Below the pieces are notes generated by a model. The model was given only the letters and a program-made list of their open reading frames with translations. It made no database searches and was not told the origin of the DNA. A DNA stretch of 64,000 nucleotides from Sphingobacterium litopenaei (lineage in GTDB: Bacteria > Bacteroidota > Bacteroidia > Sphingobacteriales > Sphingobacteriaceae), in assembly GCF_014692495.1 (NCBI RefSeq), contig NZ_JACOIJ010000012.1:1-64000 (forward strand), in the 5' to 3' direction. The translations under genes and the position numbers were made by a program. Shown here piece after piece: positions 34,137-47,227 of this stretch (position 1 is its first letter; every line of letters starts with the position of its first letter).

Positions 34137-34291
34137 TTTTTTTATGCCCATTAAGAGAATTTAAACTATAAATTATTGATACTAAAATTTTATTAATGTT
34201 AATTTATTAAAATAAGTATTTGAAATTGAGTTGTTTACTTAATAATGTATATAAAATCTATAAAATTAGTAGACTTTTTATTTTTTGTTTT

Positions 34292-34299
34292 TATATTTG
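34292..34299 (+). promoter_or_regulatory. -7 box before the first leader ORF
   Basis: TATATTTG matches TAnnTTTG exactly and lies 64 bp before the leader ORF start and 286 bp before the receptor, so the transcript would carry a long leader. Confidence 0.55.
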
Positions 34300-34363
34300 C
34301 ATCGTCATGTATGTAAGTACTTAACAATAAGCTATTAATCAACCATAAATAAAAATTTAAAAA

Positions 34364-34462
34364 ATGACACAATTTTATAAAGAACAATACAAAGAATTGG
34401 TAGTGAGGATAATAGAATTTAAACAAAATCTTTATCAAGGAAGGATGCGAATGCGTAGATAG
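34364..34462 (+). CDS. 32-residue leader ORF upstream of the TonB receptor
   Basis: ATG to TAG, 32 codons: it begins MTQFYKEQYKELVVR and ends NLYQGRMRMRR. It lies 123 bp before the receptor ATG, in the same direction, between a -7 box and a pair of alternative hairpins. The last codons (ATGCGAATGCGT AGA) share the ten bases ATGCGAATGC with the end of a second small ORF before the SusC gene at 38149-38244, whose peptide ends KMRMHA. Position, size and shared ending suggest a regulatory leader peptide whose translation is sensed. No known family is recognised; the function is inferred. Confidence 0.6.
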   Translation: MTQFYKEQYKELVVRIIEFKQNLYQGRMRMRR

Positions 34463-34468
34463 TTTCTT

Positions 34469-34510
34469 TTCCCTTATGTATATAGATAGGGGAAGTGTGA
34501 GGCTTCCCCT
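34469..34510 (+). promoter_or_regulatory. attenuator-like alternative hairpins
   Basis: Three segments follow the leader stop codon: TTCCCTTAT (34469-34477), ATAGGGGAAG (34486-34495) and CTTCCCCT (34503-34510). The middle one can pair with either neighbour: 9 bp with one G-U pair on the left, or 8 bp AGGGGAAG/CTTCCCCT on the right. The right hairpin is followed by TGATTTTGTT, a weak T-rich tract. This is the layout of a leader-peptide attenuator. Confidence 0.5.
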
Positions 34511-34585
34511 TGATTTTGTTAATAATGAACAAGTTTTCAATTGGCGTTGTCACTTGTAATATTCACTACTAAACGATTTAAAATT

Positions 34586-37180
34586 ATGAATTATAAAGCT
34601 ATTTATAGCATATCTTTTGGATTATCTTTATTGCTAGGTACTGCTGGAGCAGTGCAAGCACAACAAAAAGATCCTAAACCTATTATCAATGCTTCTTTAA
34701 TCGGTACAATTATCGATGCTGACACCAAAGAGCCTATTGCAGGTGTTACCGTACAGTTGGATGCAGTAACTCACCAAGTTAAAACAGATAGAGATGGTAA
34801 ATTTCAATTTGTAACTGGTCAAAAATTACCATTTACGGTTATCGTATCATATTTGGGATACGAAACCCAAAAATTAGTTATAGAAACTTCACCTGCTGTC
34901 ATTGAATTAAAACAAAGCGTAAATTCCTTGGAGCAAGTTTTCGTAACTTCCCGCCGTCGTACAGAACAAATTCAGGATATTCCGATTCCCGTATCTCTAG
35001 TACGAGCTAGTGTTATTGAAGATGCAGGTGCTTTCAATGTTAACCGTATTAAAGAAGTTATTCCTTCTGTCCAATTATATGCTTCTAATGCACGTAATAC
35101 GACCTTAAATATACGTGGTTTGGGCTCTACTTATGGATTAACAAACGATGGAATTGATCCTGGTGTAGGTTTTTACTTAGATGGTGTGTATTTAGCACGT
35201 CCAGCAGCTACCGCATTGGATTTTATTGATATCGAGCAAATCGAGGTGTTGCGTGGCCCTCAAGGTACTTTATTCGGAAAGAATACCACTTCGGGTGCAT
35301 TTAATATTACCTCACGTCTTCCATCATTTGTTCCAGGAGCTAACTTTGAAGTGAGCTATGGTAACTACGGTTATGTGCAAGGTAAAGCTTCGATCACAGG
35401 TCCAATTGTGAAAGATAAATTGGCGGCAAGAGTTTCTTTTTCAGGAACACAACGTGATGGTCTATTATACAATGTGCACTATGACCGTCAAATCAATGAT
35501 ATCAATAACTTAGGTCTTCGTGGACAATTGTTATACACACCTTCTGAAAATTTGAAGGTTACGTTGACGGGTGATAGAACTATTCAAAAACCTGATGGTT
35601 ATGGATGGGCTGTGGCTGGAGTAGTACAAAACCAACGTTCGGAATACAGACAATTCAATAAGATCATTGAAGATTTAGGGTATGAAATTCCTTATAAGAG
35701 CGCTTTTGAACGTAAAGTTGATTTAGATACACGCTCAAAGGCAGATAATGAATTAGGTGGGGTTTCTTTAAACTTCGATTACAAAATAGGTAACGGTACA
35801 TTGACTTCCACTTCAGCTTGGCGCTATTGGAATTGGGTACCATTAAATGACCGTGATTATTTAGGAATTCCAGTATATACCATTTCATCTGGTAATTCTA
35901 CACACGATCAATGGTCTCAAGAATTCCGCTATTCAGGTAATATCAACGAAAAAATCAGTGGTGTAATTGGTGTATTTGGTTTATGGCAAGATCTAAGAAC
36001 TGATCCTGTACATACTGAAGAAGCTGGAGATGCGCTATGGCGTTTCCAACAGAATAATGCTTCCGCTACTCAATGGGCTACTGGATTAATTGACAAAGTA
36101 GGTATCCGAACAAATTACGGAATCAAAAGTACAAGTTTAGCAGTATTTGGACAGATTGATTGGGCAATAACAGATAAAATTCACGTATTACCAGGTTTAC
36201 GCTATAATTATGATAAGAAAGTAGCAGATTACGATCGTAAGAAATATATCGAAAATAATATTCAATATACAGAAGCACAATTAGCTGCAGTAAATAGTAT
36301 CTATTCAAATCAACAATTTGATATAGATGCAGATGCTGGTAATTTATCGGGACAATTGTCATTACAATATAAATTCAATCCGAACTACAATGTTTTCGTG
36401 ACTTATTCCAAATCTTACAAACCTATTGGTATCAACGTGGGAGGTTTGCCCGTGATTGATGGAAAAGTGGCAACAGAATTAGCAGAAGTAAAACCTGAAT
36501 CTGTAAATCACTACGAATTTGGGGTGAAAACCAACCCTACGGGTAATGCTTTCTTAAACTTGACAATTTTCCAAACAAATATTAAAGATTACCAAACACA
36601 AGTACAAACACCAGACCCAGGCGTAAATAGGGGTTATTTGGCAAATGCTGAAAAAGTAAGCGTAAAAGGTTTGGAATTAGACGGTAGTATCCGTGCAAGT
36701 AAATATCTACGTGTAAATGCTGCTTTTGCTTATACCGATGGTAAATACGATTCATTCACGAATGCACCAGTTCCATTGGAAGAAGTAGGTGGAGCACAAG
36801 CCTTCAAAGATGTTTCAGGAGGTGAATTGCCAGGTCTTTCTAAATATTCTTGGACTATCGCTCCAGAATTTACGGTAAAAGGGGATTTATTGGGGCTTCA
36901 AGGTAACTACTTCTTAGGCGTAGATGCATTTTATCGTTCGAAATTCTCATCTAGTCCGTCGCCATCACAATATTTAAATATTGATGCATATACCTTGGTT
37001 AATGCGCGTTTAGGGTTCCGTGCAAGTAATGGTCTCTCAGTTATTGCTTGGAGCAGAAACATAACAAATATAGATTATTACGAGCAATTACTAGCTGCTC
37101 CCGGCAACTTCGGTCAATATGGTGGTGTAGTGGGTGATCCACGTTCATATGGTGTGACTTTACGTTACAATTGGAGATAA
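34586..37180 (+). CDS. TonB-dependent receptor
   Basis: 864 residues. Signal peptide MNYKAIYSISFGLSLLLGTA to about 27; CarboxypepD-regulatory-like domain about 30-113 (NASLIGTIIDADTKEPIAGV); plug about 120-240 with RRRTEQIQDIPIPVSLVRAS, LNIRGLGSTYG and LRGPQGTLFGKNTTSGAF; then a 22-strand barrel ending GVTLRYNWR. The plug is the classical siderophore-receptor type, unlike the SusC gene downstream, yet the N-terminal domains of the two are almost the same. I start at the ATG after a run of TTG-initiated codons. A TSUP permease follows 36 bp later. The substrate is probably a small sulfur compound, by context only. Confidence 0.92.
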   Translation: MNYKAIYSISFGLSLLLGTAGAVQAQQKDPKPIINASLIGTIIDADTKEPIAGVTVQLDAVTHQVKTDRDGKFQFVTGQKLPFTVIVSYLGYETQKLVIETSPAVIELKQSVNSLEQVFVTSRRRTEQIQDIPIPVSLVRASVIEDAGAFNVNRIKEVIPSVQLYASNARNTTLNIRGLGSTYGLTNDGIDPGVGFYLDGVYLARPAATALDFIDIEQIEVLRGPQGTLFGKNTTSGAFNITSRLPSFVPGANFEVSYGNYGYVQGKASITGPIVKDKLAARVSFSGTQRDGLLYNVHYDRQINDINNLGLRGQLLYTPSENLKVTLTGDRTIQKPDGYGWAVAGVVQNQRSEYRQFNKIIEDLGYEIPYKSAFERKVDLDTRSKADNELGGVSLNFDYKIGNGTLTSTSAWRYWNWVPLNDRDYLGIPVYTISSGNSTHDQWSQEFRYSGNINEKISGVIGVFGLWQDLRTDPVHTEEAGDALWRFQQNNASATQWATGLIDKVGIRTNYGIKSTSLAVFGQIDWAITDKIHVLPGLRYNYDKKVADYDRKKYIENNIQYTEAQLAAVNSIYSNQQFDIDADAGNLSGQLSLQYKFNPNYNVFVTYSKSYKPIGINVGGLPVIDGKVATELAEVKPESVNHYEFGVKTNPTGNAFLNLTIFQTNIKDYQTQVQTPDPGVNRGYLANAEKVSVKGLELDGSIRASKYLRVNAAFAYTDGKYDSFTNAPVPLEEVGGAQAFKDVSGGELPGLSKYSWTIAPEFTVKGDLLGLQGNYFLGVDAFYRSKFSSSPSPSQYLNIDAYTLVNARLGFRASNGLSVIAWSRNITNIDYYEQLLAAPGNFGQYGGVVGDPRSYGVTLRYNWR

Positions 37181-37216
37181 TAATTCGGTTAATTCACTCA
37201 ATTAATATGCTAAGAC

Positions 37217-38122
37217 ATGAGTAATAAAGTTCAAGCTATTGACGTTCCGACACCTTTGGTGAAGAAGAAAATACTATCGCCTATAGTAGGATTGATATTA
37301 TTATTGAAAGTAGTTATTATCGCTTATTTTGGATATATGCTTGTTCAGGCAGTACAGAATAATACGGTAAATTTCGACAGCACATTCTTCTTATTTATTC
37401 TTGCAGGATTCTTTGCACAGCTGATAGATGGAGCTTTAGGTATGGCCTATGGCGTGAGCTGTACAACTTTATTACTCAGTCTTGGAATATCACCAAAATT
37501 AGCATCTGCAAGTGTGCATACTTCGGAGATTTTCACTACAGGAGTATCTGGATTGTCTCATATCAGATTTAATAATTTAGACAAGAAGCTTTTCTTCAAG
37601 ATAGTTTTTACAGGGGTTTTGGGTGCATCTTTGGGGGCGTATTTGCTGTCGGATTTAATTGATGGCGCAGTAATAAAACCTTATATATCTGTTTATCTTG
37701 TTTTCTTGGGAGGCTATTTAATTTATAAAGCTATTCGCAAAAATGTGGAAGGCAAACCTAAAAGAAAATATGCGCCAGTACTTGCACTATTTGGTGGATT
37801 GTTGGATGCAATAGGTGGCGGTGGCTGGGGACCGATTGTTACTTCTAACCTTTTGAGTCAAGGGCATAATCCACGCAAAACTATAGGTACAGTAAACACA
37901 GCAGAATTTTTCGTAACATACTTTGCTACTATAGTTTTCATTTTCGTTCTTGGAGTTCAGCATTTAGATATTGTTTTGGGATTGGTAATCGGAGGAGTCC
38001 TGGCAGCGCCAATTGGGGCTTATGTAGCTTCAAAAGTAAATCCTAAGACCTTATTAATACTCGTAGGAACGTTGGTGGTCCTAACTTCTATATGGAGCTT
38101 GATTAATATATTTTTAAAATAA
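37217..38122 (+). CDS. TSUP family permease (TauE/SafE-like)
   Basis: 301-residue inner-membrane protein with about eight helices in two homologous halves. The first half contains GFFAQLIDGALGMAYGVSCT near 71-90 and the second ALFGGLLDAIGGGGWGPIVT near 191-210; these paired Gly/Asp-rich motifs are the TauE/SafE signature. The family moves sulfite, sulfoacetate, taurine-derived or other sulfur anions. It sits between the TonB receptor and the second leader ORF, 36 bp after the receptor. With the YeiH-type exporter further down it makes sulfur-compound handling the best guess for this locus. Confidence 0.9.
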   Translation: MSNKVQAIDVPTPLVKKKILSPIVGLILLLKVVIIAYFGYMLVQAVQNNTVNFDSTFFLFILAGFFAQLIDGALGMAYGVSCTTLLLSLGISPKLASASVHTSEIFTTGVSGLSHIRFNNLDKKLFFKIVFTGVLGASLGAYLLSDLIDGAVIKPYISVYLVFLGGYLIYKAIRKNVEGKPKRKYAPVLALFGGLLDAIGGGGWGPIVTSNLLSQGHNPRKTIGTVNTAEFFVTYFATIVFIFVLGVQHLDIVLGLVIGGVLAAPIGAYVASKVNPKTLLILVGTLVVLTSIWSLINIFLK

Positions 38123-38148
38123 TTCTTTACTATCACAACCTTATCAAC

Positions 38149-38244
38149 ATGAAAAACAAAGCAAATTCTAAACTAGGGAACAGCGTTAGTAAAGATTTAA
38201 TCATTCTTTATACTATCTGTTACAAAATGCGAATGCACGCCTAA
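38149..38244 (+). CDS. 31-residue leader ORF upstream of susC
   Basis: ATG to TAA: it begins MKNKANSKLGNSVSKDLIIL and ends TICYKMRMHA. It starts 26 bp after the TSUP permease and ends 133 bp before the SusC ATG, nearly the same distance as the first leader ORF from its receptor. The shared ten bases ATGCGAATGC encode the MRM of the ending. The peptide bodies are otherwise unrelated, as expected if only the end is under selection. In the following gap GGCTT (38298-38302), CAAGC (38320-38324) and GCTTG (38346-38350) could form competing weak stems. No known family. Confidence 0.55.
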   Translation: MKNKANSKLGNSVSKDLIILYTICYKMRMHA

Positions 38245-38377
38245 TTAGTTTAATCTACATATATTAAAGTTCTCGGGAGGTGGGCACAACTCTAGAGGCT
38301 TTATCAACGGTCATTCATGCAAGCGTTTTGATATCTATAAAAGCTGCTTGTTGTAAATAACTTTAATCTTACTTAAA

Positions 38378-41300
38378 ATGAAAAATAAGAGTGTATTTTT
38401 ATACGCCCTAGCTATATTATTGTCTATATCGTCGGGCTTTTGGAATCCGATAAAAGCGCAAGAAACAAAACCTATTATCAATGCTTCTTTAGTAGGAACC
38501 GTAATCGATGCAGATACTAAAGAACCCATCGAAGGCGCGACTATTCAGTTGGAAGCTGTAACACATAGTGTAAAAACAGATCGCCAGGGAAAATTTCAAT
38601 TTGTTACAGGGCAGAAATTACCATTCACTGCAACGATATCTTATGTAGGCTACGAATCGCAAATCTTTGTATTCAAAACATCACCTGCAGTAGTAGAACT
38701 AAAACCAAAATCTAATGGATTAGATGAGGTGGTAGTAGTAGGGTATGGAACGCAGAAGAAAAAGGACGTGGTAGGTTCCGTTGCTAAAGTGAGTGGTCAA
38801 GCTTTAGAGGATATTCAGAGTTCTGGAGTGGACCAACTTTTACAAGGACAAGCGTCGGGTGTTTTAGTTTCTGCTAATTCATCGGTGCCTGGAACAGGTA
38901 TATTTTTACGTGTTAGGGGTTCAACTTCTATTAATGCTAGCAATAATCCCTTATATGTCGTTGATGGGGTATTCATCAATAATACAAGTCTCCAAACTAT
39001 AGGAACAGGGGGACAAGAGACTTCTCCTTTAGCGGATATTAACCCTTCCGATATTGAATCAATAGAAATATTAAAAGATGCTAGTGCTACGGCTATTTAT
39101 GGTGCAAGAGGAGCAAATGGTGTGGTAATTATTACTACAAAAAGAGGTAAGGCTGGGAAAAATAATATTGGATTTAGTCTTTCAAAATCATATTCAAATG
39201 CGCCGAAAAAATGGAAAACGTTAACTGCAGAACAGGAAGCAATACTCCAAAATGAAACATGGATAAATGATGGAAAGGATTTTAGTAAAAGACCATTTCG
39301 TCCCGTAAGCGATGGAGGTAAAGGAAATCCAGAAGATCTCACTACTTATGATAGAATTGGGCTTATATTTCAAACCGCAGAAAGTGAAAATGTTGATTTA
39401 TCGCTTAGTGGGGGCAATGAAAAAACGCAGTATTATTTAGGTGGTAGCTTTGCCAATCAAGAAGCTATTGTTAAGCCTGATTGGTTTAAAAGGTATAACA
39501 TTAAAATAAATCTAGATAACAAGATCACGGAAAAAGTGAAGGTTGGTACAAGTACAAGTTTGGTACGAACGATTCGGAATATGAGTGCCAACGGAAATGT
39601 GCCTAATGGAACAGTAAATGGGGCATTATATACTCCATCTTATTATCCAATATTTACAAGCGATGGTAATTATAACCGTCCAGTGTTCTTTGAAAACCCC
39701 TTAGCAACTATTAATGAATCAAACTTTAAAGCGGAAGGTTCAAGGGTTATTAGTAACGTATATGGTTCATATTCAATTTTGAAAAATTTAATTTTCAAAA
39801 CAAGTTGGAGTATTGATTTCAACGAAAACTATGAAAACAACTACTACAATAGTAAAATGTTTTTAGGTCAACCTAATGGGGAGGCTACCTCTGCCACATC
39901 ACGATTAACTTCTTTGATAAATGAGCAGACACTGTCCTATCTCACAACTATCAATGATAACAACCAATTATCTTTGGTAATCGGAAATACGTTGCAAAAG
40001 GAGTCTCATGACCTGACGAGTGTCACGGGGATTGGATTTCCATCCGACGAATTTACAAAAATTGCATCTTCTGCAACTCAATATGGTACTTCTAGGTCAA
40101 CAGCGTCAGCTTTAGTATCCTTTTTTGGGAAGGGAACATATATTTACGCTGACAAATATATATTAGATGCAAGTATTCGTGCAGATGGATCTTCACGTTT
40201 TGGAAAGGAAAATAGATGGGCTTATTTTCCATCAATTGGTGGAGCTTGGAGAATTTCCCAAGAATCCTTCTTAGCAGATATTCAATGGTTAAGCGATTTA
40301 AAATTAAAGGCAAGTTACGGTATTACAGGAAATCAAAATGGTATAAACGATTTCTCCTCTCGAGGATTGTGGTCGGGTGGCTATAATTACTTAAATGCTT
40401 CTGGTATATTTCCTTCTCAATTGGCAAATCCTAATTTGAAATGGGAAACAACTTCGCAGTTTAATGCTGGATTTGAGATAGGATTCATCAAAAACAATTT
40501 TAATATCGAGTTCAATTATTACGATAAGTATACTAAAGACTTATTATTGTCCAATCCTATATCTTCTAAATTAGGTTTTAGCTCACAACTATCAAATGTT
40601 GGGGAAATGAGCAATAAGGGCTTTGAGTTTGCTTTTAATGGAAAATTGGTTGACAAAGCAAATTTTAAATGGAACACAAATCTTAATATTTCTAGAAATA
40701 TTAATCTTATTGAGAAGTTAAACTCTACTATTCTATTGAATAGAACAATACTCAAAGAAGGCAATCCTTTATATTCTTTTTATGCACATAAGCAGATCGG
40801 TGTAAATCCAGAAAACGGTGAGGTACTTTTCGAAGATTTAAATAATGATGGTTTAGCTACTGATGCTGATTTACAAATTATCGGAAATGCATGGCCAAAA
40901 TTCACAGGAGGCTTTAATAATGACTTCTTCCTTTGGGACAAGTTGGATATCAAATCTTTATTTTATTTTTCTGTAGGTAACAAAATGTGGAATAATACAA
41001 GGTATCGTATGGGGCATGGTGGCTCTAGAAATGATGCTTTTGCTATGTTGGAAGAACAGTTAAATAGATGGCAAAAACCTGGAGATATTACCGATGTACC
41101 TAGAATGACTGCTTCGGGAAACAATGCAAGCATTATTCCAAGTCGCTTTATGGAAGACGGTTCCTATTTGCGTCTACGCAATGTTTCCTTAGGATATCAT
41201 TTTAAAGGAAAAGTGTTAGAGCGTGCTCACATTAAAAACTTAAGACTTTATTTGGCAGCTACGAATCTTTTAACTTTTACTAAATACTCAGGAGTAGATC

Positions 41301-41404
41301 CGGAAGTAAACACTACAGGAGCTGATCAAAACCAAATTGGTTACGATCAAGCTATTGCTCCTCAACCTAGAACTTTTCAATTAGGTGTTAACTTAACATT
41401 ATAG
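38378..41404 (+). CDS. SusC/RagA family TonB-linked outer membrane protein
   Basis: 1008 residues. Signal peptide (MKNKSVFLYALAILLSISSG) to about 28, CarboxypepD-regulatory-like domain about 30-110 (NASLVGTVIDADTKEPIEGA), the SusC linker DEVVVVGYGTQKKKDVVGSV near 117-136, a plug with DPSxxESIEILKDASATAIYGAR-type motif near 225-245 and GVVIITTKRG, and a barrel ending PRTFQLGVNLTL. It forms the TonB-driven lid-and-barrel importer with the SusD lipoprotein encoded 2 bp downstream. No glycan enzymes are nearby, which argues against a polysaccharide substrate. A leader ORF precedes it. Confidence 0.94.
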   Translation: MKNKSVFLYALAILLSISSGFWNPIKAQETKPIINASLVGTVIDADTKEPIEGATIQLEAVTHSVKTDRQGKFQFVTGQKLPFTATISYVGYESQIFVFKTSPAVVELKPKSNGLDEVVVVGYGTQKKKDVVGSVAKVSGQALEDIQSSGVDQLLQGQASGVLVSANSSVPGTGIFLRVRGSTSINASNNPLYVVDGVFINNTSLQTIGTGGQETSPLADINPSDIESIEILKDASATAIYGARGANGVVIITTKRGKAGKNNIGFSLSKSYSNAPKKWKTLTAEQEAILQNETWINDGKDFSKRPFRPVSDGGKGNPEDLTTYDRIGLIFQTAESENVDLSLSGGNEKTQYYLGGSFANQEAIVKPDWFKRYNIKINLDNKITEKVKVGTSTSLVRTIRNMSANGNVPNGTVNGALYTPSYYPIFTSDGNYNRPVFFENPLATINESNFKAEGSRVISNVYGSYSILKNLIFKTSWSIDFNENYENNYYNSKMFLGQPNGEATSATSRLTSLINEQTLSYLTTINDNNQLSLVIGNTLQKESHDLTSVTGIGFPSDEFTKIASSATQYGTSRSTASALVSFFGKGTYIYADKYILDASIRADGSSRFGKENRWAYFPSIGGAWRISQESFLADIQWLSDLKLKASYGITGNQNGINDFSSRGLWSGGYNYLNASGIFPSQLANPNLKWETTSQFNAGFEIGFIKNNFNIEFNYYDKYTKDLLLSNPISSKLGFSSQLSNVGEMSNKGFEFAFNGKLVDKANFKWNTNLNISRNINLIEKLNSTILLNRTILKEGNPLYSFYAHKQIGVNPENGEVLFEDLNNDGLATDADLQIIGNAWPKFTGGFNNDFFLWDKLDIKSLFYFSVGNKMWNNTRYRMGHGGSRNDAFAMLEEQLNRWQKPGDITDVPRMTASGNNASIIPSRFMEDGSYLRLRNVSLGYHFKGKVLERAHIKNLRLYLAATNLLTFTKYSGVDPEVNTTGADQNQIGYDQAIAPQPRTFQLGVNLTL

Positions 41405-41406
41405 TA

Positions 41407-42741
41407 ATGCAAAAAAATCTAATCATAATCACAATATTATTTTTGTTTTCATCTTGTGCCAATTTTCTTGAGGTAGAACCTGAATTGGCTGTAAGTGATG
41501 AACAATCGATAACTAATGGAAAAGGAGCCGCAGCCGCGTTGAATGGGGTTTATAACAAATTGGCTTCTGATAGTTACCATGGTGTTTCTTTTCGATTTAT
41601 TACCAATCTTTCAGGTGATAATTTAAGATGGGTTGGTAACAGTCCTAGTAATCGGGAGTTTGATGTTTTTGAAGTCTTTACTTCTAATTCAAGAGTTGAA
41701 AGTTTATGGAATGCCATCTATAGCACGATTAATGGAGCAAACCATATAATCTCTAAGGTGCCTGACATACAGGATCAAGCGTTTACAGATGCGGAAAGAG
41801 CTCGCATACTTGGCGAAGCGTATTTTATACGTGCATTGAATTATTTTGATCTTGTACGATTGTGGGGAGGTGTTCCTATAGTAGTGAAACCCACAGGCTC
41901 TATAGAAGATGGATTAGGAATTGCTCGTTCGGATAAAGCTGCGGTATATGAACAGATATTATCGGATCTAGAGAAAGCAGAGCAGTATTTAGAACTTACT
42001 ACCGTTAAGTCGAGAGCATCTAAAGGGGCAGTATGGGCTTTTAGAAGTACACTTTATTTGTATCTGGAAAGATGGCAAGAAGCGGTAAATAATGCAAATA
42101 AGGTGATTGAAGAAACTACCATATATCAATTGAATAAAAGCTATTCGGATTTTTACTTATCAAAAAATACTGCTGAATCAATTTTTGAAATTGACTATAC
42201 TATCAATAACCGCAATAACTATGCGATTAATTGGCTTCCTGGATCTTTAGGAGGAAGAAGAGAATTTTTACCGACGGATGATCTGATAAATCTTCTTAAT
42301 AATCCTCTTGTAGGTGGTGATCGCAGGAACTTACTACTATTAGATCAGGATATTTACTATGGTAATATGGATTTTAAACCTGCTACGGGGATTGATCAAG
42401 TTTATGTCTTCCGACTTGCAGAAATATTTCTCAATAGAGCTGAAGCTAATGTTAAGCTTAAAAAATTAGCTGATGCAAATAATGACCTGAAAAAGGTACG
42501 TGCAAGAGCAAATGTTTCGGAAGTTTCTGATTATGCAAATGAAGAAGAATTAGAGAGACAAATACAATTAGAACGTAGATTAGAATTTGCATTTGAAGGA
42601 AAACGATGGTTTGATTTAATAAGAACCAATAAGGCTAAATCTACATTAGGTATAACAAAAGATTACAAATTATTACTCCCTATTCCGCAACAATTAATCT
42701 TTGTTGATAAAGAAATTGAACAAAATGAAGGATACAAATAA
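41407..42741 (+). CDS. SusD/RagB family surface lipoprotein
   Basis: 444 residues with a lipoprotein signal: MQKNLIIITILFLFSSC, lipidated Cys17. The family features are visible: DEQSITNGKGAAAALNGVYN near 37-56, the TPR-like ARILGEAYFIRALNYFDLVR near 132-151 and RLWGGVPIVV, and the C-terminal FEGKRWFDLIR and PIPQQLI motifs. It acts as the ligand-binding lid of the SusC barrel. At 444 residues it is somewhat shorter than typical SusD (about 500), mostly in the loop region before the last helices. It is translated directly after SusC, with a 2-bp gap. Confidence 0.94.
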   Translation: MQKNLIIITILFLFSSCANFLEVEPELAVSDEQSITNGKGAAAALNGVYNKLASDSYHGVSFRFITNLSGDNLRWVGNSPSNREFDVFEVFTSNSRVESLWNAIYSTINGANHIISKVPDIQDQAFTDAERARILGEAYFIRALNYFDLVRLWGGVPIVVKPTGSIEDGLGIARSDKAAVYEQILSDLEKAEQYLELTTVKSRASKGAVWAFRSTLYLYLERWQEAVNNANKVIEETTIYQLNKSYSDFYLSKNTAESIFEIDYTINNRNNYAINWLPGSLGGRREFLPTDDLINLLNNPLVGGDRRNLLLLDQDIYYGNMDFKPATGIDQVYVFRLAEIFLNRAEANVKLKKLADANNDLKKVRARANVSEVSDYANEEELERQIQLERRLEFAFEGKRWFDLIRTNKAKSTLGITKDYKLLLPIPQQLIFVDKEIEQNEGYK

Positions 42742-42753
42742 AATTATATAAAT

Positions 42754-43587
42754 ATGAAAAGTTTAAAAACTTTAATAATTGCATTTGGAATAGTTTCAAC
42801 TGCATTCGCACAAGGAAAATATACTGTTACGGGTACAAGATTTTTATTGCCTTTATTTGAACAATTTAATGAACCGTTACAAGAAGAAGGATTTGATAAA
42901 TTATTTGAGGCTACATCTAGAAATCCAAAGGCCGATATTACAGCCACTGCTACACCAAAAGTGCTTCCCGCTGCAAAGGAAGGTTATAAACAAATTGGCT
43001 TAGCTAAGATTGTTTATTTACCTGTTGTTAACACAAAGCACCCCGATATTAAAACACTATTGGAAAAAGGTATTCGCGTGGATGAACTTAAAAGTATATT
43101 TTTTAAAGACAAGGGAGATGCCGGATTTAAACCAAATTCTAATTTCAATGTATTAACTCGTAGCGCTTGTGCAGCGGTTTCATTTTCTAGTTTTTTAAAG
43201 GAGGATATTAAAACGCTTGTCAATGACTATGATAAAATAGAAAATGACAGTTTGTTAATAGATCTTGTTACCAAAGACACCTTAGCCATCACCTTTTTAG
43301 ATCCTTCTAATATTTATGATATTAACACAGGAAAGATAAAGTATGGAATAACTGTTTTGCCAATAGATTTAAACAATAATGGTACTATAGACAGTGATGA
43401 AAACTTTTATTCAGACCGTAAGGTACTAATAGAAAGACTTAAAAAGGATAAAATTGAATTGCCTTCGGGTCTACTAACAGTCACCATATCTGAAAAAGAA
43501 AATGCATATTTTTCAAAATATGTGAACTGGGTTAAAGAAAAAGGAGATCCAATCATAGAGAATTTTGGTTTTTTACCACTAAATTAG
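42754..43587 (+). CDS. secreted PstS-like substrate-binding protein
   Basis: 277 residues with a signal peptide (MKSLKTLIIAFGIVSTAFAQ). The mature protein resembles the periplasmic phosphate-binding (PBP-like) fold: TVTGTRFLLPLFEQFNEPLQ, then KQIGLAKIVYLPVVNTKHPD, RVDELKSIFFKDKGDAGFKP and LTRSACAAVSFSSFL, the last like the oxyanion-binding SGT/RS loop of PstS. No ABC permease or ATPase is adjacent, so it may deliver an oxyanion or sulfonate to the TSUP or YeiH-type carriers, or act with the SusCD pair. The gene starts 12 bp after the SusD gene. Family placement is moderate; function is inferred. Confidence 0.65.
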   Translation: MKSLKTLIIAFGIVSTAFAQGKYTVTGTRFLLPLFEQFNEPLQEEGFDKLFEATSRNPKADITATATPKVLPAAKEGYKQIGLAKIVYLPVVNTKHPDIKTLLEKGIRVDELKSIFFKDKGDAGFKPNSNFNVLTRSACAAVSFSSFLKEDIKTLVNDYDKIENDSLLIDLVTKDTLAITFLDPSNIYDINTGKIKYGITVLPIDLNNNGTIDSDENFYSDRKVLIERLKKDKIELPSGLLTVTISEKENAYFSKYVNWVKEKGDPIIENFGFLPLN

Positions 43588-43605
43588 TTCCATAGTAATT
43601 AAACC

Positions 43606-45039
43606 TTGGCAAAATACGACGCAATAATAGTTGGTTCTGGACCGAATGGTTTTGCTGCTGCAATTACTTTGCAGCAGCAAGGTCTTTCTACGTTAATTGT
43701 AGAAGGAGCGGGTACCATAGGTGGGGGAATGCGGACGAAGGAACTGACACTGTCAGGATTTAAACATGATGTCTGCTCGGCTATACATCCGATGGCTATG
43801 GCATCACCCTTTATGTGTTCTATTCCTTTGGAAGTATACGGTTTGTCTTTTGAATATGCAAAATTCGAAGCTGCGCATCCTTTATTGGGTGATGAAGGAA
43901 CTGTTTTACATCGCAGTTTGGAACAAACCATTGAAGAACTAGGAGAAGATGGCGAATACTACAGAAGTTTGATAGAGCCAGTCGCTAAGAATTGGGAAAG
44001 GCTAGCGAAGGATACTATGGGACCATTTGGATTTCCCAAATACCCATTGAATCTTGCTGCTTTTGGTTTGCATGCGATACAACCTGCTTCGTGGTTGGCA
44101 AAGCACTTTAAAACTGAAAAAGCAAAAGCCTTATGGGCGGGAATGGCAGCTCACGGTATACAGCCCTTGGATAATTTAACCACTTCAGCAATAGGTTTAG
44201 TTTTGTTGGGAGTAGGACATCGGTATGGTTGGGCTATTCCCAAAGGAGGTTCACAAGCTATTGCGAATGCTTTAGAGTCTTATTATTTATCCTTAGGAGG
44301 AAAGATTCAGACTGGTTTCTGGTTGAAGAACAAGTTCGATTTGCCCGAGCATAAAGTATTATTATTGGATCTTACACCAAAACAATTATTAGATATTGAA
44401 GGATTGGGTTTGTCGTCATTGTATACCAAACAATTGCATCGATACAAGCAAGGGATGGGGGTATTCAAAATAGATTGGGCACTTTCTGAAGAAACCCCAT
44501 TTACCGACTTGCGCGCACGTCAGGCAGCAACTGTACATATCGGCGGAACATTCAATGATATTGCACTCTCAGAATATGATGGTCATCGTGGAAGAGTTTC
44601 GGATAAACCCTTCGTACTTTTTACGCAACAAAGTCAATTTGACAAAACTAGGGCGCCAGAAGGGAAACATACGGGGTGGGCATATTGTCACGTGCCCAAT
44701 AGTTCAACAGTGGATTATACCGAAATAATAGAGAATCAAATCGAGCGGTTTGCGCCAGGATTCAAAGACACCATCTTAGGGAAACATACATTTAGTCCTG
44801 CAAAGCTGGAAGAATATAACCCCAATTATATAGGAGGCGATATCAATGGCGGCATCATGGATATTTCGCAATTATATACGCGTCCTACGCTTTCATTGAA
44901 TCCGCACCGAACATCCAACAAATCAGTTTACCTCTGTTCGTCCGCTACGCCTCCAGGTGGTGGGGTGCATGGCATGTGTGGTTTTCATGCGGCTCGATTG
45001 GCTTTGAAAGACCATTTTAATATTTCAGTAAGTTTATAA
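43606..45039 (+). CDS. FAD-dependent oxidoreductase, phytoene-desaturase-like
   Basis: 477 residues. The start is TTG: the Rossmann motif IIVGSGPNGFAAAI begins at residue 7, so no later start is possible and no ATG lies upstream before a stop. Further features are GAGTIGGGMRTKEL near 34-47 and a C-terminal GGVHGMCGFHAARLAL that closes the FAD site, as in the CrtI/NAD(P)-FAD oxidoreductase group. No carotenoid genes are adjacent, so the substrate is unknown. It overlaps the next gene by 1 bp (TAATG) and follows the binding-protein gene by 18 bp. Confidence 0.82.
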   Translation: MAKYDAIIVGSGPNGFAAAITLQQQGLSTLIVEGAGTIGGGMRTKELTLSGFKHDVCSAIHPMAMASPFMCSIPLEVYGLSFEYAKFEAAHPLLGDEGTVLHRSLEQTIEELGEDGEYYRSLIEPVAKNWERLAKDTMGPFGFPKYPLNLAAFGLHAIQPASWLAKHFKTEKAKALWAGMAAHGIQPLDNLTTSAIGLVLLGVGHRYGWAIPKGGSQAIANALESYYLSLGGKIQTGFWLKNKFDLPEHKVLLLDLTPKQLLDIEGLGLSSLYTKQLHRYKQGMGVFKIDWALSEETPFTDLRARQAATVHIGGTFNDIALSEYDGHRGRVSDKPFVLFTQQSQFDKTRAPEGKHTGWAYCHVPNSSTVDYTEIIENQIERFAPGFKDTILGKHTFSPAKLEEYNPNYIGGDINGGIMDISQLYTRPTLSLNPHRTSNKSVYLCSSATPPGGGVHGMCGFHAARLALKDHFNISVSL

Positions 45040-45959
45040 TGGCGCAGAAAAGAATTGTATTAGCAGGAGGAACGGGGAATATAGGCAAATTGCTGACCTT
45101 GATTTTGATTCATTTGGATTATCAGGTGATAATTTTTAGTAGAAGGGAGCTAAAATCTTCTCACCCTAATATCCAATATATCAAATGGGATGGTGAAAGC
45201 CTTGGTAACTGGGTACAAGAGATGGAAGGTATTGATACTCTAATCAATCTGAGTGGAAAATCTATCCAATGTCGCTTCACGGATGATAATAAAAAGATTT
45301 TGTTAGAATCCCGCATTGTGCCTACACGAATTTTGGGTGAAGCTATTGCTACTTTAGGTTCTCCACCTCGGTTATGGATCAATTTTTCTGGCATATCCCT
45401 TTTCGAAGGTGTAGAAGGATTAAATAATGAAGAATCCACATCCTTTGGAAAAACTTTTTTAGCCCATCTTACTCAAGAATGGGAAAAGACTTTTGTTGAA
45501 GCTAATACGCCTGCCACAAAGAAAGTAATCTTACGATTGAGTCCAGTTTTATCTACAAAATTCGGTATGTTCAAGGAACTACTGCCGCTGGCAAAACTCG
45601 GGTTAGGAGGAAAAGTAGGCGATGGAAATCAGCAAATAGCCTGGATTCACGAACTGGATTTAGTTCGTCTGGTCATGTGGATTATCAATCTTGAATCTCC
45701 ATCTGCATTGTATCATGCATGCGCTCCCGAGCCAGAGTCGAATAAAGAATTTATGAAAAATTTGCGGAAAGCGGCAGGAATGCCTATTGGGATGCCTTTG
45801 CCTGCTCTTTTCGCTAAACTTGGAGCTTATTTCAAAGGTGTAGAAAGTGATATGTTGTTACTGACGAACGCTGTTTCGACTACGCGTACTTTGCAAGAAG
45901 GCTTTATATTTAATTATCCAAATACTCAAAAAGCATTTGAACATCTAACTAAAAAATAA
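45039..45959 (+). CDS. TIGR01777 family NAD(P)-dependent oxidoreductase
   Basis: 306 residues of the extended SDR/epimerase type. NAD(P)-binding motif GGTGNIGKLL at 10-19; DTLINLSGKSIQCRFTDDNK near 67-86, the signature of the TIGR01777 (YfcH/SULA) group; ILESRIVPTRILGEAI-like segment follows; a C-terminal DUF1731-like domain with FAKLGAYFKGVESDMLLL. The reaction is unknown. It is translationally coupled to the FAD oxidoreductase by a 1-bp overlap and followed 14 bp later by the YeiH-type gene. In the tail region the last codons are Lys-rich. Confidence 0.88.
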   Translation: MAQKRIVLAGGTGNIGKLLTLILIHLDYQVIIFSRRELKSSHPNIQYIKWDGESLGNWVQEMEGIDTLINLSGKSIQCRFTDDNKKILLESRIVPTRILGEAIATLGSPPRLWINFSGISLFEGVEGLNNEESTSFGKTFLAHLTQEWEKTFVEANTPATKKVILRLSPVLSTKFGMFKELLPLAKLGLGGKVGDGNQQIAWIHELDLVRLVMWIINLESPSALYHACAPEPESNKEFMKNLRKAAGMPIGMPLPALFAKLGAYFKGVESDMLLLTNAVSTTRTLQEGFIFNYPNTQKAFEHLTKK

Positions 45960-45973
45960 CAATACAATAAATT

Positions 45974-47227
45974 ATGTCAACAAAAAGAATAGCATTTACT
46001 GAAGATTGGGTCGTGGTGATTTTGGGATTGGGCTTAGTCCTGGTAGCCTTATTGGGCTTCATCATTCCAAAGCCAAGTTTCAGCTGGGAATCCACTTCAG
46101 AATTGACTTCTAAAGTGCTTTCCGTATCGAATTTAACAAAAATTGGAAGCCAATTTATTACCGTTTATATTACAGCGATTTTGGGCGCATTGTTACTGAA
46201 CAAATCAATTAAATCCTTGCTTATCGTTTTTCCGTCGGTTTTTGTATTGACCATTTTTGCCTTGATTTTGGCAGGAAATGCAACCGTAAAAGAATATAAC
46301 CTCGAAGCCGTAATTTTTGCGTTAGGGATTGGTTTGTTGATTAGCAATACTTTCACCTTACCAGAATGGTTCAAAAATGCATTAAGCACTGAATTGTATG
46401 TGAAAATAGGTTTAGTCCTGTTAGGAACTACAGTAATTTTTGGGGACATACTTAAAGCAGGCTCGCTGGGTTTAATACAAGCTTTAGTAGTGGTGATTTC
46501 CGTATGGTATTTTGCTTTTTGGATTTGTAAAAAGTTGAAGATCGATAAAGAAATGTCCTTAATGCTGGCAAGTGCGGTTTCGATTTGTGGCGTTTCGGCA
46601 GCAATCGCGACATCTGGAGCCATCAAAGGTGACAGCAAAAAATTGTCCTACGTCATCTCTTTGGTGTTAATTACCGCCATTCCAATGATGATTTTTATGC
46701 CATACTTAGCTGAATGGATGGGGTTATCACAAGAAGTTACAGGCGCTTGGTTGGGTGGTTCTATCGATACAACAGGAGCTGTGGTAGCTTCTGGTTCACT
46801 AGTGGGTGAAGAAGCGTTAAAAATCAGTACTATTGTTAAGTTCTCACAAAATGTATTGTTAGGTATAGCTGCCTTTGCAATTAGCATTTATTGGACTTAT
46901 GCTAAATCCGTAGACGATGAAACCAAAAAAGAAAAACCTACATTGAAAATCATTTGGGAGCGTTTTCCAAAATTTGTTATCGGATTTGTCTTTGCTTCTT
47001 TGCTTTTCTCTTTCGTTATTTCTCCTGAAACAAATAATTTGGTTAAGGAAAGCTTGAAAAGCTTACAGAGTTTGTGGTTTGTTTTAGCATTTACTTCCAT
47101 TGGCTTGGAAACCAATTTTAAAGACCTTTTCCAACACAGTAATAAAAAACCTTTATATGCATTTTTGATTGCGCAGACCTTTAATATTTTGGTCACTTTA
47201 GGGATTGCATTGATATTATTCCAATAA
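45974..47227 (+). CDS. YeiH family putative sulfate exporter (UPF0324)
   Basis: 417-residue inner-membrane protein with about 10-11 helices. Recognisable segments are FALGIGLLISNTFTLPEWFK near 115-134, the LASAVSICGVSAAIATSGAI helix near 196-215, and GAWLGGSIDTTGAVVASGSL near 258-277, all characteristic of the YeiH/PSE family. Some members are annotated as sulfate exporters, with weak experimental support. It is the last transport gene of the receptor locus, 48 bp before the sigma factor gene. Confidence 0.88.
   Translation: MSTKRIAFTEDWVVVILGLGLVLVALLGFIIPKPSFSWESTSELTSKVLSVSNLTKIGSQFITVYITAILGALLLNKSIKSLLIVFPSVFVLTIFALILAGNATVKEYNLEAVIFALGIGLLISNTFTLPEWFKNALSTELYVKIGLVLLGTTVIFGDILKAGSLGLIQALVVVISVWYFAFWICKKLKIDKEMSLMLASAVSICGVSAAIATSGAIKGDSKKLSYVISLVLITAIPMMIFMPYLAEWMGLSQEVTGAWLGGSIDTTGAVVASGSLVGEEALKISTIVKFSQNVLLGIAAFAISIYWTYAKSVDDETKKEKPTLKIIWERFPKFVIGFVFASLLFSFVISPETNNLVKESLKSLQSLWFVLAFTSIGLETNFKDLFQHSNKKPLYAFLIAQTFNILVTLGIALILFQ

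Follow-up and report, generated by a model that had tools for sequence, protein, structure and literature searches.

Two short ORFs before outer-membrane receptors of Sphingobacterium litopenaei are probable eroded members of a cysteine-coded leader peptide family

Why should two short ORFs, each lying just upstream of a different outer-membrane receptor gene, share the same ten bases at their ends? The question is raised by a 64,000-nucleotide stretch of the Sphingobacterium litopenaei genome, referred to here as the window. In it, leader ORF 1 (peptide MTQFYKEQYKELVVRIIEFKQNLYQGRMRMRR) stops 123 nt before the ATG of a TonB-dependent receptor gene (taken as 34586; the ORF list has TTG 34541), and leader ORF 2 (peptide MKNKANSKLGNSVSKDLIILYTICYKMRMHA) stops 133 nt before the start of a SusC/RagA gene at 38378 (Table 1). 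A preliminary description of this DNA had reported the two ORFs with their sizes, positions, orientation, distances and common ten bases (ATGCGAATGC), all of which we confirmed in the window. It had further judged the likeness hard to explain by chance and proposed that translation of the peptides controls the receptors, with Met and rare CGA (Arg) codons as the sensed element. Our comparison with related genomes suggests a different signal. The window ORFs appear to belong to a recurring family, seemingly not described before, of cysteine-coded leader peptides, and we put at roughly two in three the probability that these leaders are cysteine-codon-sensing, ribosome-mediated attenuators before sulfur-scavenging outer-membrane receptors.

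Table 1. Coordinates of the leaders, their predicted control elements and the neighbouring genes in the window
Feature	Position	Strand	Remarks
Palindromic operator-like site ATCTAT-N7-GTAGACTTT	34256..34277	+	From aligned upstream regions and a listing of 64 loci
Promoter box TATATTTG	34292..34299	+	72 nt before leader 1
Leader ORF 1	34364..34462	+	Ends GRMRMRR; CGA at 34448-34450; CGT where relatives have a Cys codon
Predicted attenuator strand 1 (TTTCCCTTAT)	34468..34477	+	Can pair with strand 2
Predicted attenuator strands 2 and 3	34488..34510	+	Terminator-like hairpin AGGGGAAGT-GTGAG-GCTTCCCCT, then TGATTTTGTT
E hairpin	34529..34557	+	ACAAGT arm, loop with TCAATTGGCGTTGTC, ACTTGT arm
TonB-dependent receptor, CarboxypepD_reg-like domain	34586..37180	+	Pfam PF00593, PF07715, PF13715
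TauE/SafE-family transporter between the two leaders	37217..38122	+	Pfam PF01925
Leader ORF 2	38149..38244	+	Ends CYKMRMHA; within putative operon
Leader 2-SusC stretch	38245..38377	+	Hairpin near SusC start, z -0.99
SusC/RagA family receptor	38378..41404	+	NCBIfam TIGR04056, E 3.3e-237
Remaining putative operon	41407..47227	+	SusD family, 277-aa protein, FAD oxidoreductase, epimerase family, YeiH-like (Cons_hypoth698)

The ten-base word occurs twice in the window, where 0.13 copies are expected, and none of 100 shuffles contained two copies. In the genome as a whole there are 12 copies, the same number as for the reversed control, and because the word is as common as its control, ATGCGAATGC on its own is weak evidence. 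When the 12 genomic places were read singly, only the two window copies stood at the end of a leader-like ORF. A pair of chance ORFs that happen to hold a common word would be in keeping with the genome count, but this reading is refuted by the recurrence of both position and codons across relatives, and its probability is close to nil. The earlier judgement about chance hence stands, although not for the word itself: it is the ORFs ending in (M)RMC before the homologous receptors of relatives that point to a non-chance origin. At the DNA level, window positions 34360-34600 have a match (E <= 0.001) in 71 of 93 genus genomes, most of these matches spanning only the surroundings of a hairpin element, here called E, without the leader.

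We searched for related loci in two ways. With the TauE gene between the window leaders as scan query, 31 named loci were obtained, many of which carry ORFs of about 30 codons upstream of receptors; the bodies of these ORFs are mostly unrelated, and their common end is MRMC, or RMC followed by zero to few residues. The second set was anchored on E and comprised 76 distinct E-like sites (at most three mismatches) followed within 15-45 nt by the start of an ORF of at least 200 aa, or 65 sites from Sphingobacterium and Parapedobacter once 11 from other genera were left out. The genes after these 65 sites are receptor-like in 64 cases (KPIINASLxG-like or PIINA-type start), the exception being L225. 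In a codon-blind ORF search, RMC lay within the last 14 residues at 47 of the 76 sites, and at 47 of the 65 Sphingobacterium and Parapedobacter sites there is an ORF whose end is at or close to Arg-Met-Cys; the 47 leaders stop 90-134 nt before the gene. The sites are related by descent, and these counts are not of independent events. A KPIINASLxG-like start, as at window positions 34586 and 38378, is a possible marker of the E-preceded receptor class.

In these leaders the Arg is CGA in all 47, against a CGA share of 12.8% among 2745 Arg codons in the ORFs of at least 300 aa at loci L172-L231. The Cys codon, by comparison, is TGT in 31 leaders and TGC in 16; the Cys wobble varies while the Arg wobble is fixed, the pattern that reading of Cys at the codon level should give. 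Constancy of the frame and of the Arg codon, with the Cys wobble left free, speaks for translation and decoding at this point. Searching for CGAATG 30-150 nt upstream of E gave a hit at 53 of the 65 sites (2.2% in shuffles), followed by a Cys codon in 47 of the 53. The family thus has the short ORF with one or more Cys codons near its end that is expected of a ribosome-mediated attenuator. Of the two elements that the preliminary description took to be sensed, the CGA codon is indeed under exceptional constraint. Met finds no support as the signal: it precedes the Arg in 31 of the 47 leaders and is missing from the other 16, and the residue that forms runs of 4-9 elsewhere is Cys. We rejected Met sensing on these grounds. 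The Met after the Arg is invariant, in a set that was itself found by RMC.

The window leaders look like derived members of this family. Six relatives of leader 1 (L013-L017 and L019) end MRMC where the window copy has MRMRR, and the two relatives found for leader 2 end CYKGRMCQ (L014) and CYKSRMCN (L019) where the window copy has CYKMRMHA. The shared word ATGCGAATGC would accordingly be an eroded form of a motif with the conserved core CGA ATG TGY (Arg-Met-Cys). In neither window leader is CGA-ATG followed by a Cys codon; leader 2 retains one Cys four codons before the CGA. The pair thus appears to have kept CGA-AUG and lost the Cys codon, and as given would itself be unable to sense cysteine at that position. 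This loss from both copies is why only Met and Arg had been seen at first, and the predicted recurrence of [RK]MRM[RHK] in relatives was found in a modified form only, as ...MRMC.

Five further sites have CGAATG without a following Cys codon. At L179, near position 2117, the ORF ends GRMR (CGA ATG CGT TAG), the same Cys-to-Arg loss as in window leader 1; the leader of L152 ends RMPCY; at L168, on the minus strand upstream of E at 1819, CGAATG is out of frame; and the occurrences at L172 and L223 look like chance. Cys would therefore seem dispensable in at least three lineages. Where the RMC leader would be, L168 has an ORF that contains three Cys codons and ends ..AECRCDCGSLIQ; the out-of-frame CGAATG lies within it.

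Sections of PMC8632094 report short motifs such as Arg-Leu-Arg in antibiotic-sensing leaders. An Arg-Met-Cys (MRM) end might similarly stall the ribosome as a nascent peptide, alone or with a small molecule, in which case Cys-tRNA would not be the signal; that the window retains MRM without C, and L179 RM without C, would fit such an arrest. We nevertheless find this explanation improbable. Known arrest peptides usually need tunnel residues, and the leader bodies are mostly unrelated in sequence. The CGA codon is invariant, rather than merely any Arg codon, which points to decoding, and Cys runs of 4-9 residues in other groups point to codon supply.

These Cys runs came from a tally at class and phylum level. 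RMCCC was found at 35 places in 32 of 395 genomes (reversed control, 6 places) and RMCCCC at 34 places in 30 of 395 (control, 3 places). We dropped this excess as evidence because the matches at L264, L272, L276, L277, L279 and L285 are an out-of-frame reading of NVLLLDEPTN in ABC-transporter genes; most of the other matches look like chance. When 30 loci of the RMCCCC search were read singly, seven proved leader-like, with an ATG start, a terminal Cys run and a gene downstream. Five of these, in Bacteroidia family f54, end in MRM followed by 6, 6, 7, 7 and 9 Cys and lie 51-53 nt before a 268-aa gene; a sixth f54 leader, which ends RMCCCC, is separated by 299 nt from a TonB receptor gene (Pfam Plug); and the seventh, in genus g2, ends MRMCCCCA 47 nt before a 268-aa gene called PhyH by Pfam. 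The Arg of all seven is CGA, although the search pattern allowed any [CA]GN.

The five f54 268-aa genes have starts similar to the g2 PhyH gene, and the PhyH-like gene behind the Cys-run leaders may perhaps have a role in organosulfur oxidation. A further MRMCCCCA leader was found in g2 (L290). In Parapedobacter indicus (L042), an RMRMCC leader lies 55 nt before a TonB receptor, P. pyrenivorans (L335) being similar, and the MRMCCC leaders of L160-L162 are several hundred nt away from the receptors that follow. Loci L307-L310, L312 and L314 carry the leaders with MRM and 4-9 Cys that stand 47-53 nt before a 268-aa gene (PhyH-like where run through Pfam). A class-wide search with MRNATGCGAATGTGY gave matches in 73 of 395 genomes; the 30 MRNATGCGAATGTGY loci read on the + strand (19 rows, mostly chance) do not show single-Cys MRMC outside the family.

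Mutually exclusive downstream hairpins, as expected of an attenuator, are present: a hairpin of strands 2 and 3 occurs in 44 of 52 leader-receptor stretches (none by the criterion used in the other 8), the best hairpin being of a different kind in 6 of the 44, and in 42 of the 44 a strand 1 is able to pair with strand 2. Strand 1 starts 19-24 nt after the first base of the CGA in 29 of these 42. Folding of window positions 34480-34525 gave z -2.95. Terminator-like sites number 3 in the window leader 1 region against 2.6 expected from shuffles, and the terminator-like hairpin of leader 1 recurs in relatives. Across 43 usable stretches, the 2:3 pairing scored 21.5 against 15.8 with permuted partners, a value reached in 0 of 300 permutations. 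The 1:2 pairing scored 14.3 against 13.6 (again 0 of 300, a small effect), and 11.1 when the letters of strand 1 were shuffled. Both permuted-partner tests are inflated by sequence kinship.

The comparison shows the family itself, where it sits, how its codons are conserved, the pairing of the hairpins and the genes around it; leader translation, a cysteine signal, termination and the direction of control we infer as follows. A ribosome translating the ancestral leader would reach CGA-AUG-UGY adjoining the stop codon. The invariant and presumably slow CGA may pace it just ahead of the sensing codon. A shortage of Cys-tRNA would keep the ribosome waiting, its P site over AUG and its A site over UGY. 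Ribosomes shield some 16 nt past the first base of the P-site codon, so the front edge would lie at about +19 from the CGA, approximately the first base of strand 1, and strand 1 would be free for strand 2. The 1:2 pairing would block the terminator-like 2:3 hairpin and the receptor would be on. With plentiful cysteine, the ribosome would move to the stop codon and cover strand 1, hairpin 2:3 would form and the receptor would be off.

The tract after strand 3 is T-rich in the window (TGATTTTGTT) and modest outside the window clade, and such weak U-tracts would suit a cysteine-coded leader that dispenses with intrinsic termination and is read out by Rho-dependent termination or translational coupling. 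This shares its signal with the attenuator and differs in the read-out; it has been proposed for actinobacterial polycysteine leaders. The leaders lying just 45-56 nt from the gene (the PhyH-like and Parapedobacter cases) would also favour it, as they leave too little room for a three-strand switch, and so would leader 2, which sits inside the operon with neither an E element nor a conserved three-strand switch between it and SusC. The three-strand arrangement, with its similar spacing in 29 of 42 stretches, speaks against such a read-out, which we think rather unlikely.

Upstream of leader 1, TATATTTG follows the pattern TAnnTTTG, which we take to be a Bacteroidota-type promoter box. TAnnTTTG was found within 220 nt upstream at 54 of 64 leader loci, compared with 14% of 2000 random stretches, and lies 62-80 nt before the leader start at 43 of the 59 box positions listed, a distance that would speak against leaderless transcripts beginning at the AUG of the ORF, as in the mycobacterial polycysteine attenuators. 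In 15 aligned loci the box is preceded by the palindrome AAAGTCTACT-N4-AGTAGACTTT, a dyad found in relatives of which the operator-like site of the window is a part. The pattern RTCTAYN7RTAGACWTT has its sole 0-mismatch site in the window genome at this place (34256-34277); the degenerate N7 operator pattern is not enriched, with 186 occurrences against 178 in the reversed control, and we rely on the exact site alone. A one-mismatch operator copy in the window genome (L378) precedes a hexapeptide-transferase gene, which on visual inspection looks similar to the serine acetyltransferase of L173.

The second conserved element is E, an invariant loop TCAATTGGCGTTGGC between variable complementary arms such as ACAAGT/ACTTGT, TCGTT/AACGA and CAGGT/ACCTG. 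The window genome has one exact copy, at 34537, with the end of its 16-mer 33 nt upstream of the receptor start; folded alone, the window E is unexceptional (z -0.99). Across sites, the E stem has on average 4.1 pairs, against 2.7 with permuted arms and 3.1 in the largest of 200 permutations (138 sites, chance matches from other genera included). With at most one mismatch, E was found in 110 of 301 family genomes and, among the rows listed, in 53 of 68 genomes of its own genus. No reversed-control match occurs among these genus rows, although such matches do occur elsewhere in the family. E ends 31-35 nt before the receptor start at 59 of 65 sites, and a further E (at most three mismatches) lies upstream of 33 of 64 leaders examined, mostly 25-42 nt before the leader start. 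Since this upstream copy is mostly 18-23 nt after the TAnnTTTG box, it probably lies close to where the mRNA begins. With its covarying arms and constant loop, E looks like an RNA hairpin that a factor recognises.

Could E then be the real regulator, acting through an RNA-binding protein or a small ligand, with the leader ORFs secondary? The fixed spacing, the second copy before the leader and the pairing of the arms would all be expected, and 18 of the 65 E-preceded receptors lack an RMC leader, a count that also weighs against the attenuator reading, which leaves E unexplained. We regard a purely E-based control as unlikely all the same. No E is listed beside leader 2 or its L014 and L019 relatives, the g2 genome G175 has an MRMCCCCA leader and no E with at most one mismatch, and the codon-level constraint in the ORFs would go unexplained. 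A riboswitch, SAM riboswitches included, was rejected, as Rfam gave no match in the window at gathering score. A relaxed search of window positions 34150-38400 gave only rli52 over 34415-34519 (E 4.1, 22.6 bits, 70 needed), and a search of six loci one unrelated weak match. E, without an Rfam match, flags the receptors of a likely sulfur regulon and offers a way of locating their genes.

Comparative evidence supports the reading of these ORFs as leaders and their recurrence before outer-membrane receptors in sulfur-related settings. One genome holds nine E sites within 91 kb; six ORFs of this stretch chosen for a sulfatase-like start were all six confirmed as sulfatases, and serine acetyltransferase (SATase_N), class-V aminotransferase and SrpI-like encapsulin genes are also present. 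Genes of these three kinds, the encapsulin being SrpI-like and of type 2A, lie beside an E-preceded receptor at L173 (14386-17944, minus strand). The aminotransferase there is perhaps a cysteine desulfurase, and, judging by the encapsulin neighbourhood, sulfur storage may belong to the E/receptor regulon.

In the window, orientation and spacing suggest that the genes from 34586 to 47227 form an operon, in which leader 2 would control the SusC/RagA receptor. The YeiH-like gene scored below the cut-off of TIGR00698, and the 277-aa protein (42754-43587) had no Pfam or NCBIfam match. Ten ORFs at 49-60 kb were rejected as sulfonate genes, being nitroreductase, M20 peptidase, DUF4197, GDPD, TelA and others. 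The TauE and YeiH-like families of the window operon count towards the sulfur context, and the window receptors themselves may well have a sulfur role.

Taken together, and on comparative evidence throughout, the Cys runs, the three-strand switch and the sulfatase island with its nine E sites support cysteine attenuation, and translation-based control of sulfur receptors would fit the evidence where Met sensing does not. Since both leaders of the window genome are without the Cys codon, they probably sense cysteine less well or not at all; the remainder of the leader 1 apparatus is still in place. The hairpin E would be a second element, probably binding a factor. More speculatively, the two may form a two-layer sulfur switch, a possibility we hold only tentatively. 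Two E hairpins alike in their loop, the first close to the mRNA 5' end and the second directly ahead of the receptor, would be bound by one sulfur-status factor and gate both leader and receptor; between them the CGA-AUG-UGY leader would use its slow CGA to place the ribosome for cysteine-dependent attenuation. If so, E would be a new regulatory RNA class, the type of switch would be new to Bacteroidota, and the window genome would represent a naturally occurring version from which the cysteine input has been removed. What makes the system of interest is an invariant Arg codon inside a regulatory peptide, and a mechanism by which Bacteroidota might time the building of sulfur-scavenging receptors and sulfatases.

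No known leader-peptide family accounts for these ORFs: neither the two window peptides nor five relatives matched any NCBIfam family at E <= 10, and this candidate was rejected. Among the literature matches listed there was no report of the RMC leader family or of E, 'MRMC' being mostly an imaging acronym. Attenuators of the trp and his type consist of a leader ORF, regulatory codons and mutually exclusive hairpins. The RMC family shares all three but differs from them in its weak U-tracts and in the position of strand 1, which lies just past the stop codon and not over the sensing codons, so that a stalled ribosome would leave it free. In a Flavobacterium, parts of PMC9723704 give clues for leader-peptide attenuation before amino-acid operons. 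The uORFC-8-2 motif before cysS in proteobacteria, as presented in sections of PMC8632094, is a Cys-codon leader ORF with a terminator, for which ribosome-mediated attenuation has been proposed; unlike the RMC leaders, it usually has two tandem Cys codons at positions 14-15 and cysS as its target, and those sections mention no Arg-Met core or second hairpin element.

Further close parallels are actinobacterial. Canestrari et al. 2020 reportedly describe polycysteine leaderless attenuators of mycobacteria, the ORFs being leaderless by the title of that work. According to parts of PMC1262725, leader ORFs with Cys-codon runs precede cys operons in Mycobacterium and Propionibacterium acnes and cbs in Bifidobacterium longum, and the Mycobacterium leaders showed no conserved terminator hairpin. 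Like the RMC leaders, these are short ORFs with Cys codons by the stop and sulfur genes downstream, with cysteine as the proposed signal. Unlike the mycobacterial leaders, the RMC family puts a fixed Arg(CGA)-Met ahead of the Cys and comes with E hairpins, a three-strand switch and a predicted promoter mostly 62-80 nt upstream; its targets are outer-membrane receptors and its hosts Bacteroidota. The cysteine-sensing leader family of Bacteroidota would thus be a variant of a principle known from Actinobacteria, with the hairpin E as a new companion.
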